DNA of 24,864 bases from a virus. Each line of letters opens with the position of its first letter. Within the stretch, counting starts at the first letter, position 1. Location of the stretch: IMG/VR virus record IMGVR_UViG_3300020721_000021, positions 1 through 24,864 of that record; one strand, written 5' to 3'. The notes beneath the pieces were generated by a model. The model saw nothing but the letters and a program-made list of their open reading frames with translations. It was not told the DNA's origin and did no database searches. Position numbers and translations under genes: made by a program. Positions 3,138-24,864 of the stretch are shown here, piece after piece.

Positions 3138-4178
3138 ATGTATTTATCATACGTGTATAGATTGACACACCAAAAATCTAACAAATTTTATATTGGATAT
3201 AGATATGCCAATATTGCATTAAAAATTCACCCTGAAGATGATATAGGTATACATTATTTTACTTCTTCTTCGTATATAAATAAATCAAATATTCATGAAT
3301 ATAATATAGAAATTTTGTTTAAATCCAAGAACCCAGAAGAATCATATGATTATGAAAACTCAACAATTCTTGAAAATTGGGGTGATCCTCTTTTATTAAA
3401 TAAACATGTATCTAATAATAATAAAAAGCGGTTTAAGAGCACCGTTGAAGGTATAGCACGGGTGCGAGAAATTAATAAAAATAAAAGATGGTTTAATAAT
3501 GGTAAAGAAGAACGTCATTGTCACATCTGTCCAAATGGATTTATAGATGGTAGATTATTTAATCCATTCCCAAAACAAACAAAAACTGTAAAAGGATACA
3601 TATGGTGTAATGATGGAATACATCAACGATTAGTATTACCCACTAACATCCCACAAGGATTTAAACCAGGAAGATTACCATCCAGTTCAGAAACAAATAA
3701 AAAAATAAGTGATACACTGAAAAAAGTATATATTCATGGAAAAAGATGGTATACGAACGGTACTGATTCTATTTTAAGTTTCGAATGTCCAGATGGGTGG
3801 TTTAATGGGCATTCATATGGTAGCGGTATATTAAAAAATAAGAGAACGTATAATTCATTTAAATGGTATACAAATGGAAGTATTAATAAAATGGTCAAAA
3901 CTAATGATGATATCCCATTGGGTTTTTGGCCTGGTAGATATAATAAACCTAAATGGTATACTGACGGTGTGAATACTATTCAGAGTGTTGTACCAATAGA
4001 AGGATTTATAGAAGGTAGGGTTTGTGAATTATGTAATAAACAAGTGACCCATAATACTTATAGAAGATATCATGGGCCAAAATGTAAATTAAATAATAGT
4101 GTTAAATTCTGGATGTCAATACCTTGTCAGCTAACCCAAATGCAACTGAGGAGTTGGCATCCATATAATTATCTCTAG
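3138..4178 (+). CDS. GIY-YIG homing endonuclease with five WYTNG repeats
   Basis: The N-terminus reads YVYRL then FYIGYRYAN (residues 5-24), a GIY-YIG nuclease signature, with a likely catalytic Glu in the YENS region near residue 73. Residues about 117-294 hold five repeats of about 23 residues with the pattern W-[YF]-x-[ND]-G, 9-12 residues, P-x-G-[FW]-x2-G-R. A zinc finger, C296-x2-C299 with His and Cys near 312-316, closes the conserved part. I start at 3138, not 3096, because the upstream 14 codons are the leader hairpin read as protein. The last 26 codons run antisense into the clpP 3' end. Confidence 0.82.
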
Positions 4179-6704: not shown

Positions 6705-6920
6705 GAAGCTTTTTAATGCGCCGATAAAATAAATTATTAATAATCCGGCATTCACAAGAACCAAATTAAGTTCTTTAACCCGTATACTCCATATCATATA
6801 TAAGAATGAACCAGCATTTAACATATATATGTTTAAAGGATATATTTGAAAGCTGGTAAGAAGTGCAGCAACTAATGTTACTGCACATGCAACCCATTTT
6901 AATACAATATTAATTTTCAT
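6678..6920 (-). CDS. 80-aa membrane protein
   Basis: Three hydrophobic stretches (about residues 5-25, 30-46 and 52-75) separated by short polar turns, including RVKEL, suggest an inner-membrane protein. The start overlaps the RNA ligase stop by 11 bp. The sequence (LKWVACAVTLVAALLTS, then PLNIYMLNAGSFLYMIWSIRV) recalls small membrane proteins found in other phages, without known function. Confidence 0.72.
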   Translation of the reverse strand: MKINIVLKWVACAVTLVAALLTSFQIYPLNIYMLNAGSFLYMIWSIRVKELNLVLVNAGLLIIYFIGALKSFLTLSINAI

Positions 6921-7791
6921 AGTATTCTAAGAAGTTTCTAACCAATTCTAAGCGGGATTGCTCATCTAATAATGTAAATTCTTCAATATTTGATTGAATA
7001 TGGTCAATTAATGGATAATATTCTTCATCAACTTTTTCTTTTACATTATGTGCCATTAGCTTAGTTGTATTCTTATTACGAGCTACAAACTTTTTAACCA
7101 AATAATAAGGACTTTTGATTTTGGCACTTATTCCATCACTTGTATAGAATACAAAACCTTCATGTTTAACAGTTTTAATTGTATTCAATAATTCAGTAAT
7201 GGTGCAACTAGTTTTTTCAACATCAAAACATCCAAAGTCAATATTGACTGGTCTTTCAATTTTTGAACCATATAATTTAATTCGACACCCAAGAAAATAC
7301 ATTCCTTCGTGTTCTGGAATAATATGTGGATCATTTCTATGAACACATTCAAATATAAAAGTATATTCTGGAAGCATTTTACAAGTTTCACGATATTTTT
7401 CTATTGTTGGTTCAATTATTTCACGCGCCATTGTGACAAAATCAGAATCTGTAGTTCCAGTAGTTGATACTAATATATCATCATTATACCAAGTTACAGA
7501 TACCATAAATCCATTAATTTTACGATATGCATCAACAATAGTATCTGGTTCTAATACAGGCGACTTTGATTCAACCCCATAATTATAAATTTTAGTGAAT
7601 GGATATGAAACAATGTTGAAATCATCATCAACTAATGTTCCACGGCATTCTTCTAAATATTCATTCCATAAATTGTCATAAAATACTTTTTTCTTGTATT
7701 TTAAGACATAAACACCTGGATATGATGATTCTTTCATAGTTACTAAATTTGGATTATCTATTACAAATTGTTTTAATAAATTTCGATCCAT
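6910..7791 (-). CDS. RNA ligase, T4 Rnl1-like
   Basis: A covalent nucleotidyltransferase of 293 aa that joins 5'-phosphate and 3'-OH RNA ends. The adenylated lysine is K91 in the motif KING (KxDG in T4 Rnl1, with Asn replacing Asp). ECRGTLV (48-54), FIFECV with E148, HEGFVFY with E211 and AKIKSPYY (K224/K226) supply the other motifs. T4 Rnl1 repairs tRNA anticodon loops cut by host anticodon nucleases. With a large phage tRNA array here, the same role is likely, but no polynucleotide kinase/phosphatase partner is in the window. AGGAAAT precedes the start. Confidence 0.9.
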   Translation of the reverse strand: MDRNLLKQFVIDNPNLVTMKESSYPGVYVLKYKKKVFYDNLWNEYLEECRGTLVDDDFNIVSYPFTKIYNYGVESKSPVLEPDTIVDAYRKINGFMVSVTWYNDDILVSTTGTTDSDFVTMAREIIEPTIEKYRETCKMLPEYTFIFECVHRNDPHIIPEHEGMYFLGCRIKLYGSKIERPVNIDFGCFDVEKTSCTITELLNTIKTVKHEGFVFYTSDGISAKIKSPYYLVKKFVARNKNTTKLMAHNVKEKVDEEYYPLIDHIQSNIEEFTLLDEQSRLELVRNFLEYYEN

Positions 7792-14468: not shown

Positions 14469-14542
14469 TGGAAGCAGGTGATAGAGTCGAACTATCATCT
14501 CTGGGTTATGAGCCCAGAATTCTACCATTAAAATAACCTGCG
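14469..14542 (-). tRNA. Initiator-type tRNA-Met (CAT)
   Basis: Anticodon arm CTGGG-CTCATAA-CCCAG has the three G-C pairs diagnostic of initiator tRNA. Acceptor positions 1 and 72 are C and T and cannot pair, the other main initiator mark. T-arm GATAG-TTCGACT-CTATC, A14, GG and A21 are conserved, and CCA is encoded. The D-stem is weak (T-T at 10-25), and the 11-24 pair is T-A rather than the purine-pyrimidine of E. coli initiator. It ends one base before E element 4. Confidence 0.85.
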
Positions 14543-16931: not shown

Positions 16932-16960
16932 ATTATATATCGTTTTTCAATGGCTGTCAA
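16932..16960 (-). promoter_or_regulatory. Sigma70 promoter of the exported protein gene
   Basis: TTGACA (16960-16955), 17 bp, TATAAT (16937-16932) on the minus strand; exact consensus. The -35 box overlaps the stop codon of the dioxygenase gene. Confidence 0.86.
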
Positions 16961-17406
16961 GTATAATTTGCAATCCAACCATTTGTATCTGTAAAAAACC
17001 GTATTGCTGAAAGATCTGGAGTTTCACCAGCATCAAACCAATGTTTCATATTAGCTGGTATACTTATTAGATCACCAGTGTTTACAGTTATTTCATAAAT
17101 GGTACTGCTATCTTTAATATAAAATGTAGCAGTACCATGAGTTATAAATCTCATTTCAAAATCAGTATGAGTATGTTCTCGAATAAATTCTTTTCTAATT
17201 TTGTTATAATTTATAGTTTTATTATTTAAAAATACTACATCATAGTATGGGACAGAATATTCATATTTTATATAATCAATTGTATCCAATGTTGTTGAAG
17301 TTGAAAAGGTATTTTTATATAAAACTCCAATTTCGTCTAATTTACAAGTTATGTCTTTAAAATCTGAAACTGTTGTATCTGTTGAATCATTGTATATTCT
17401 AAGCAT
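16957..17406 (-). CDS. mtnD: Acireductone dioxygenase (ARD) homologue
   Basis: 149 aa cupin. Metal ligands are all present: H78 and H80 in EHTHTDFEMRF, E84, and H122 in NMKHWFD. GDLISIPAN and the C-terminal AIRFFTDTNGWIANYT are typical of ARD. The family oxidises acireductone with O2 in methionine salvage, giving the keto-acid precursor of methionine (Fe form) or an off-pathway product with CO (Ni form). It is shorter than bacterial ARD (about 180 aa). I start at 17406, because the 29 codons before it lie in tRNA-Trp. No other salvage gene is in the window. Confidence 0.87.
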   Translation of the reverse strand: MLRIYNDSTDTTVSDFKDITCKLDEIGVLYKNTFSTSTTLDTIDYIKYEYSVPYYDVVFLNNKTINYNKIRKEFIREHTHTDFEMRFITHGTATFYIKDSSTIYEITVNTGDLISIPANMKHWFDAGETPDLSAIRFFTDTNGWIANYT

Positions 17407-17425
17407 ACTATTACTTATCAAAATT

Positions 17426-20143: not shown

Positions 20144-20188
20144 TGGAGGTAATAGAAAGAGTTGAACTTTCACTTTACGCCGTATGAA
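20144..20188 (-). tRNA. 3' half of a split tRNA (CAT)
   Basis: Loop TTCATAC, GGCGT, AAAGT, T-arm GAAAG-TTCAACT-CTTTC, TATTACC, T and encoded CCA. The acceptor strand pairs perfectly with GGTAATA at 20910-20904 on the far side of the endonuclease gene. The matching 5' anticodon strand (ACGCC) is not found next to the 5' half. Confidence 0.75.
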
Positions 20189-20203
20189 AGATTCCTCTTA
20201 CTC

Positions 20204-20842
20204 TTAAAGTATCTGACTAAATGTAAATCTATCTTCTTTTATTGCTTTAATTTCTTTATCTTTTAAAATAATTAAGTTATCAACACTTTTCCATTTTTGC
20301 GTATCTCTTTCAGTTTCATATCCTTTGACCTCAATATAAATATCTAACTCTTCTAAGTAAAAGTCCGGGAAATACTTGTGTACTCCTCCGTTCCATTCAT
20401 AATCAAAATATCTTACCCGTTTTGTCCACTTGATATGTTGTTTATCTAACCATATCGCAACGATGAGTTCCCAACTACTATGCATCCACTCGTCTTTGTA
20501 TAGAGATTTTTTAGCTCTACCGCAAAAATTCTTATATGAATAAGATTCAGGATGATTTTCTATATTCTTCTGTGCTTGAATCTTCATATGCAAAGACCAC
20601 TCTGCTCGTTTTTCAGCAGTCCAATATAAATCTGATTTAACTTTTTGTTTAGTTAAAGATTCTTTGCTACGAGGTTGGGCTGTACCTTTGATATACTGAT
20701 TTGATTTTTTTCTTTTACTTTGAAACTCTTTACTCTCAAACGGACTTTTTTGTCTGTCAGGGTTTTTCTTACACAATCTTTCATGGTTAATCAATGAATT
20801 ATTGTTCTTACATTCTTTATTACAAAATTTACATATTAACAT
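20204..20842 (-). CDS. PD-(D/E)XK homing endonuclease inside a tRNA gene
   Basis: About 212 aa. The N-terminal finger CKFCNKECKNNNSLINHERLC with linker KKNPDRQK is like those of the GIY-YIG enzymes here. The C-terminal nuclease has SSWELIVAIWLDKQ, KYFPDFYL (PD) and IYIEVKGY (ExK), the PD-(D/E)XK core also used by the tRNA-intron enzyme I-Ssp6803I. I prefer the ATG at 20842, since the one at 20854 touches the AAGGAG with no spacing. The gene occupies nearly all of the insert, leaving little room for a group I intron core. Confidence 0.82.
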   Translation of the reverse strand: MLICKFCNKECKNNNSLINHERLCKKNPDRQKSPFESKEFQSKRKKSNQYIKGTAQPRSKESLTKQKVKSDLYWTAEKRAEWSLHMKIQAQKNIENHPESYSYKNFCGRAKKSLYKDEWMHSSWELIVAIWLDKQHIKWTKRVRYFDYEWNGGVHKYFPDFYLEELDIYIEVKGYETERDTQKWKSVDNLIILKDKEIKAIKEDRFTFSQIL

Positions 20843-20886
20843 TTGGTAGTGCATCTCCTTCTAGTATTTATGTTTTTTTGAAAAAA

Positions 20887-20910
20887 GCACTACCATTATG
20901 CTATATTACC
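20887..20910 (-). tRNA. 5' half of the split tRNA (CAT)
   Basis: GGTAATA, TA, D-arm GCAT-AATGGTA-GTGC. It matches the 3' half at 20144-20188 by a 7-bp acceptor. GGTAGTGC (D-arm) can also pair with GCACTACC at the endonuclease start, forming an 8-bp hairpin around its AAGGAG. Confidence 0.75.
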
Positions 20911-24419: not shown

Positions 24420-24864
24420 AGATTACGATTTACGGATTTTTGCCCCCAAAATGGGAGCAAAATACATAATTTCATCTGAGTTGACTTCATTACCTAGCGT
24501 TACACTAATTACAGAGGCGGTTGGCCAGTACCTCGAAGTGCGTCTTTTGTTTCTATGTTCCAACGGTGGTATTAGGAAAACACGCTAGTCGCATTCCTAA
24601 TACGTCTGGGAATTACCCAGTCTTTTAGCCTTGTTTTTTTTATTCAAATTACCGAAATTGGTTTTACTTAAGGCGTATCCAATCATCATCCACAACACGA
24701 GGTGTGGGTAGTCAGTAAAGTCGCTGCTTTTGCTCAGCTGTTTCCCTCCATGCGAAGAACATTCCATTTCCTGGGGCACCCATTAATCTACCGGTGCGAG
24801 TATTTCAAAAGTGTTTGCCTATGGAGCCTAATGATTGCCTAAGATTTGCCTAAGATGGTATTAT
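24420..24864. other. GC-richer, structured, apparently non-coding segment
   Basis: Visibly richer in G and C than the rest, with no convincing gene on either strand. Stems include TTTTGC/GCAAAA around CCC/GGG (24448-24472), CTAGCGT/ACGCTAG, CTAAT/ATTAG, GTTGG/CCAAC, the alternative GTATTAGGAA/TTCCTAATAC, CTGGG/CCCAG followed by a T-rich tract, CCACA/TGTGG and GCACC/GGTGC. At the very end the minus strand has four TAGGC repeats 11-12 bp apart. It could be one or two non-coding RNAs, or imported DNA. Confidence 0.4.

Follow-up and report, generated by a model that had tools for sequence, protein, structure and literature searches.

The locus described here lies on the minus strand of the window, that is, of the whole stretch of 24,864 nucleotides analysed (IMG/VR virus record IMGVR_UViG_3300020721_000021), within a tRNA array in which the minus-strand order is tRNA-Glu, tRNA-Pro, tRNA-Lys, the 5′ half of a tRNA, an open reading frame (ORF), a tRNA 3′ half, tRNA-Ile and tRNA-Leu. 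The features of the locus are collected in Table 1. The resident 5′ half stops after the D-stem, and the acceptors of the two resident halves form seven Watson-Crick pairs out of seven; because of this pairing, together with the CAT anticodon of the 3′ piece, they are recognised as the two ends of a single tRNA. Re-reading of the sequence agrees with a preliminary description of this DNA as to the position of both parts, the perfect 7-bp acceptor, the D-arm in the 5′ part, the T-arm and CAT anticodon in the 3′ part, the absence of the 5′ anticodon strand, and the presence between the halves of a same-strand endonuclease gene (216 aa) that fills nearly the whole insert. The same broken arrangement recurs in two more contigs (3300020724_000225 and 3300020688_000014), which rules out an assembly artefact.

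Table 1. Features of the interrupted tRNA locus and of the second CAU tRNA of the same phage (positions in the window)
Feature	Position	Strand	Details or basis
Resident tRNA-CAU, 5′ half	20887..20910	(-)	GGTAATATAGCATAATGGTAGTGC; acceptor 1-7, U8 A9, D-arm
GGTAGTGC, 3′ part of the D-arm and 5′ arm of a predicted hairpin over the endonuclease start	20887..20894	(-)	Folding
TAAATA, T4-type late-promoter-like motif in the hairpin loop	20865..20870	(-)	Sequence
AAGGAG, likely ribosome-binding site	20855..20860	(-)	Read from sequence
GCACTACC, 3′ arm of the predicted hairpin, reverse complement of the tRNA D-arm	20845..20852	(-)	Sequence, folding
Putative homing-endonuclease gene	20204..20854	(-)	216-codon ORF; likely start ATG 20842-20840; C2HC zinc finger and PD-(D/E)XK
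Putative degenerate, element-borne 5′ half of a replacement tRNA	20189..20217	(-)	Holds the endonuclease stop codon; aligned to the tRNA-Met of L007
Resident tRNA-CAU, 3′ half	20144..20188	(-)	TTTCATACGGCGTAAAGTGAAAGTTCAACTCTTTCTATTACCTCCA; anticodon loop TTCATAC, T-arm, acceptor TATTACC, T73, CCA
Second CAU tRNA, intact, same phage	14469..14542	(-)	Loop CTCATAA

At the split locus, ARAGORN called no tRNA and the Rfam scan returned only a sub-threshold full-length tRNA match (20147-20218; 20.2 bits for a cut-off of 29). By ARAGORN, Rfam and folding alike, contiguous sequence yields no four-arm cloverleaf, and the test for a functional tRNA is not met. The tRNA of the window is inferred to be most likely dead, which is one branch of the earlier suggestion that it was either dead or rescued in some unusual way; rescue does have a counterpart in relatives, in the form of a second whole tRNA and not of splicing. 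Two further features of the window are an acireductone dioxygenase (ARD) domain gene within the tRNA array (16957-17415, minus strand; Pfam 1.7e-30) and, at 24646-24802 on the minus strand, a Polynucleobacter-1 RNA (Rfam, 66.5 bits), which perhaps hints at a freshwater betaproteobacterial host.

The protein encoded between the halves combines an N-terminal C2HC zinc finger (C4, C7, H20 and C24) with a C-terminal nuclease domain in which the active-site residues E125, D160, E171 and K173 are all intact, three of them (E125, D160 and K173) being invariant in eight family members. It matches phrog_15137 (endonuclease; 1e-27), and a profile built from eight relatives has structures of T7 endonuclease I among its matches (1m0d, E 4e-9), the E, D and E-x-K positions being aligned; this meets the definition of a PD-(D/E)XK, T7 endonuclease I-like nuclease (E...D...E-x-K, restriction-like fold). 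The preliminary description had placed it in the class of I-Ssp6803I; the PD-(D/E)XK part of that assignment holds, whereas the likeness to I-Ssp6803I is confined to the fold (VIA Z 4.7). No sequence similarity to I-Ssp6803I was detected in phmmer or profile searches, 2OST being absent from the profile hits, and membership of that group is not supported by sequence; in sequence, T7 endonuclease I is the closest match of the nuclease domain. In the AlphaFold model (mean pLDDT 74.7) the nuclease domain is well ordered, and the best VIA matches include PD-(D/E)XK enzymes such as VSR (Z 7.4) and I-Bth0305I (Z 7.6), the latter a homing endonuclease. These Z values are middling and Foldseek found no significant match of the whole model in the PDB; the assignment is carried by the sequence evidence and not by the structural scores. 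A GIY-YIG domain, as in SegB, is not supported, the Pfam, PHROG and profile matches being to endonuclease I-like families, and single-sequence phmmer matches (a serotonin receptor and others) were set aside as spurious.

An IMG/VR scan with the 5′ half found the uninterrupted tRNA in relatives, a search proposed in the preliminary description. Intact tRNA-CAU genes are present at L114 (2463-2537) and L115 (3425-3499), both reading GGTAATATAGCATAATGGTAGTGC-GCCTCC-TTCATAC-GGAGT-AAGGT-AGGGGTTCAAGTCCCTT-TATTACC-ACCA, with the first 24 nt identical to the 5′ half of the window; the L115 gene, like its counterpart in the window, has tRNA-Ile(gat) after it. Because of these uninterrupted homologs, the tRNA gene of the window is taken to have been whole formerly, and chance pairing of two tRNA fragments is ruled out. 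The two phages are more distant from the window than are the members of the other empty-site pairs from each other.

The test for a homing gene, namely presence and absence at one site in near-identical relatives, is met by three pairs (AM101/AB-Navy1, PhaxI/STP55 and cp19/Det7). In Acinetobacter phage AM101, the nuclease gene stands where AB-Navy1 has an intact tRNA-Met, with flanks about 99% identical; since 37 nt and 42 nt are identical and overlap by 2 nt (AT), the sequence comparison places a clean insertion of the AM101 cassette at CA|T|AA. The cassette is found at this site in nine records, and many of the relatives listed end at the same base. For PhaxI versus STP55 and cp19 versus Det7, the resident 5′ half is kept and the remainder has given way to the nuclease gene and a whole, different CAU tRNA, the right junction lying at or near the CCA end. 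The site of CkP1 is a tRNA-Met in Karamvirus relatives. At the level of sequence comparison, the empty-site pairs speak directly for movement into tRNA genes and for a replacement that is brought along; transfer by the element's own action remains an inference. Directly before the target tRNA-Met, AB-Navy1 (L117, 995-1069) and AM101 (L026, 1294-1368) have a tRNA with a CTA anticodon, annotated as tRNA-Pyl and possibly an amber suppressor, and the record of Det7 annotates in its array (L111, 3210-3298) a pseudo tRNA with 'a possible 15 bp intron'.

About 110 loci of the nuclease family were gathered by protein similarity alone, 67 of them non-redundant with a usable start, and the relatives in these 67 are located in tRNA arrays. 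In many loci the 5′ half of a tRNA, as a rule cut off within the anticodon loop, lies just upstream of the gene: remnants end in ...GGAAACTC (L006), ...GGCGGCTCA (AsFcp_1) and ...GTGGACTCAT (AM101) and, for other isoacceptors, in CTTCT (Arg, L027), CTTC (Arg, L099), TTTG (Thr, L093), CTG (Phe, L071) and CTCTT (Lys, L109). Remnants that end in the anticodon loop and have the anticodon of the replacement include L027, L099, L093, L071, L109 and many Met loci. The stop codon of the nuclease gene falls inside the next intact tRNA at 29 of the 67 loci (about 7 expected from tRNA coverage), often at U8-A9-G10 or just inside the D-arm, and the overlapped tRNA is a CAU tRNA in 15 of these 29 cases, compared with 34 of the 433 other tRNAs in the same loci (Fisher p 8e-9). 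At L098-L100 the nuclease gene is separated from the remnant by the intact tRNA-Arg. The anticodons of remnant and intact tRNA mostly agree where readable; a general rule to that effect fails at L052 and L068 (both tRNA-Asn). In several Met loci position 34 is a T, perhaps derived from the insert. Since AM101, CkP1 and AsFcp_1 have both tRNA halves and no replacement tRNA beside the endonuclease gene, the replacement tRNA is common, not universal.

Some loci of the family have additional peculiarities. The nuclease frame crosses the entire next tRNA-Met gene before its stop at L006 (5616-5693) and L021 (5619-5695). Stray 3′ ends of another tRNA, consisting of T-arm and acceptor, lie downstream of the replacement tRNA at L044, L076 and L009; these second scars are probably from the resident tRNA. 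CAU tRNA-like genes missed by ARAGORN, in which the D-arm looks degenerate and the variable arm is long (e.g. GGACTCTTATCGGCTCTCGCTCATAACGAGTAGAAACCGTAATTGGTTACATACAGGTTCAAGTCCTGTAGAGTCCAC), overlap or adjoin the nuclease gene at L034 (~2030-2110), L036 (~2620-2720), L041 (~970-1060) and L040 (upstream of the gene).

The 29 nt that precede the resident 3′ half in the window can be interpreted by comparison with L007, the nearest relative (nuclease 58% identical, gene frameshifted). There, the order is a remnant (GGTGCTG...GACTAATGC), the nuclease gene, a complete tRNA-Met (GGTCAGGTATCTTAAG...; 3857-3932) that begins inside the end of the nuclease gene, and a resident 3′ end (CAGCACC). Window positions 20250-20189 are homologous to the end of the L007 gene plus the 5′ half of its replacement tRNA, and the alignment of the last 29 nt (20217-20189), broken only by small gaps, continues beyond the stop codon as far as the anticodon loop (AGTCAGATACTTTAAGAGTAAGAGGAATCTTTCATACGG); the stop codon occupies nearly the same tRNA position in both. 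The acceptor of the resident 3′ half, fully paired with the stranded 5′ half, pairs at only 4 of 7 positions with the carried one, and the composite of carried 5′ half and resident 3′ half does not fold as a tRNA cloverleaf. The simplest history would be homing from an L007-like donor with a right-hand crossover, itself inferred, in the shared TTCATACGG, so that the replacement failed and a carried 5′ half was fused, at the anticodon loop, with the resident 3′ half into a chimera unable to fold as a tRNA; alternatively, the carried tRNA half may have decayed. The left break in the window lies after the D-stem, whereas in most relatives it lies in the anticodon loop, and this counts against the explanation favoured here.

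A plain insertion, without any history of replacement and with the 29 nt before the 3′ half being only the end of the gene, appears unlikely. It would be in keeping with AM101, CkP1 and AsFcp_1, where both halves stand without a second tRNA beside the gene, and with the weak pairing of the acceptor in the window chimera, but it does not account for the match of these nucleotides to the L007 replacement tRNA beyond the stop codon, interrupted only by small gaps, nor for the nearly identical position of the stop in that tRNA. It is much harder to maintain that the split tRNA is still made, its halves pairing through the acceptor and being cut out and joined as RNA, for example by a phage RNA ligase. 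The acceptor halves do pair completely in L007 as in the window, despite three differing pairs; in AM101, CkP1 and AsFcp_1 both strands of the anticodon stem are retained and a T4-type RNA ligase is encoded, and the window phage itself has an RNA-ligase gene (6910-7791, minus strand; T4-type RNA ligase / tail fibre attachment homolog, phrog_562, 2e-48). Against this, T4-type phages have an RNA ligase anyway, for which reason the enzyme was also discarded as a mark of the loci without replacement, the three tested notwithstanding; the window lacks the 5′ anticodon strand and a cloverleaf fold, and the conserved halves of AM101, in view of its flanks, may only mean that the insertion is young.

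The remaining possibility is scarcely credible, namely a group I intron whose core has been greatly reduced, on the pattern of the I-Ssp6803I-bearing intron in the Synechocystis tRNA-fMet gene. The site is similar, in the anticodon region of a CAU tRNA, and the nuclease belongs to the same broad superfamily, but the ORF fills the insert, and neither the window, where a permissive E-value was also applied, nor nine related loci gave an Rfam match to a group I or II intron; moreover, the whole tRNA that follows the gene in PhaxI and cp19 would be needless for an intron. A group I or II intron was consequently rejected, and the view of the preliminary description that there is no room for an intron core, for which an Infernal scan had been suggested, is upheld, as is its account of a tRNA gene interrupted, in the absence of an intron, by a homing-type endonuclease of the PD-(D/E)XK class.

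The stranded D-arm may have acquired a role of its own. GGTAGTGC can pair with GCACTACC over the start of the endonuclease gene, the region 20895-20835 being predicted to fold at -16.4 kcal/mol (z -3.9), and an RNA that starts at TAAATA forms no such hairpin (-0.9 kcal/mol). In L007, a different D-arm (CTAATGC) faces a different, matching partner (GCATTAG). Across the family, TAAATA occurs within 90 nt upstream of the start at 34 of 67 loci, where about 9 would be expected, mostly at -20 to -40, and the start region folds with z below -2 in 24 of 68 cases and above 2 in none of the 68. The test for hairpin regulation of the T4 type (a hairpin over the ribosome-binding site, absent its 5′ arm from the late RNA) is met, if only by sequence and folding. 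Transcripts reading through from the tRNA array would accordingly stay untranslated, while late transcripts starting near TAAATA would be translated, late expression and regulation being inferred. I-TevI, SegB and mobE are known to have the same arrangement, with a hairpin at the ribosome-binding site relieved by a late promoter (PMC2988022); the window differs from them in that the broken tRNA supplies the 5′ arm.

The best explanation for the insertion, the empty sites, the tRNA overlap, the broken chimera of the window and the role of the hairpin, taken as a whole, is considered probable. A free-standing, T7-endonuclease-I-like PD-(D/E)XK homing endonuclease would have inserted into a CAU tRNA gene, as a member of a family that targets the anticodon arm of tRNA genes, mostly CAU, where DNA cleavage is inferred. 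Insertion would strand the resident 5′ half as a scar, and the cassette would usually carry a complete tRNA, mostly of the same anticodon, overlapping its 3′ end, by which the host phage would keep its tRNA, although rescue in vivo is inferred. The family therefore behaves like a break-and-replace homing element, in the absence of cleavage or expression data. Whether it goes further and constitutes a natural cleave-and-rescue element is evenly balanced: the nuclease would break competitors' tRNA genes at the anticodon arm and supply an isoacceptor locked in place by the stop within the tRNA (often U8-A9-G10), loss of the cassette would cost the tRNA, and the window would be a recombinant with a failed rescue half.

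In codon supply, as in the evasion of tRNA-cutting defences, phage tRNA genes play a central part, and the fast change of their arrays is unexplained. If the explanation is true, tRNA turnover would be driven directly by a widespread family of nucleases that break a tRNA gene and put their own isoacceptor in its place, and synthetic cleave-and-rescue gene drives would have a natural counterpart in this family. Lazarusvirus allows the idea to be tested directly, since it includes phages with and without the insert that agree at about 99% of positions around the site. There may also be a bearing on the origin of mobile introns, since the nuclease sits at a tRNA site similar to that of an intron-borne enzyme, without an intron. 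The open-access full texts searched contained no description of homing genes that interrupt tRNA genes at the anticodon, lack an intron and bring a whole replacement tRNA.

T7 endonuclease I is not a mobile element but a resolving enzyme for branched DNA. It is the best sequence-profile match of the window nuclease (PF05367; PDB 1m0d and 1fzr), with the catalytic residues in register, and the latter differs from it by the added zinc finger and by insertion in tRNA genes. I-Ssp6803I resides in the group I intron of the Synechocystis tRNA-fMet gene (Bonocora and Shub 2001, cited in PMC1995217) and is likewise a PD-(D/E)XK homing endonuclease at the anticodon region of a CAU tRNA gene; its gene lies in a self-splicing intron and the tRNA survives, whereas in the window no intron was detected and the tRNA is broken, and relatives of the window carry a replacement tRNA. 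SegB, a free-standing T4 homing endonuclease of the tRNA region that cuts within tRNA genes (PMC2988022, PMC13096335), resembles the present case in its location in a phage tRNA array and in its hairpin relieved by a late promoter. It is a GIY-YIG enzyme located between tRNA genes, and the passages of these two papers that were consulted contain no report of its splitting a tRNA gene or carrying a replacement tRNA. A free-standing homing endonuclease also splits a phage gene in the case of mobE in nrdA of phage Aeh1, where the protein halves assemble to a working enzyme (PMC2988022); in the window, the split gene encodes an RNA, not restorable by simple assembly. Finally, in fungal mitochondria, the Allomyces atp6 element and the Glomus mobile ORFs with a foreign C-terminus are endonuclease elements that insert, bring a replacement part of the gene and leave the native part as a remnant (PMC3630166). 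These concern mitochondrial protein genes, with a LAGLIDADG enzyme in the atp6 example, whereas the present family occupies phage tRNA genes and usually brings a whole replacement tRNA that overlaps the stop codon of the nuclease gene.
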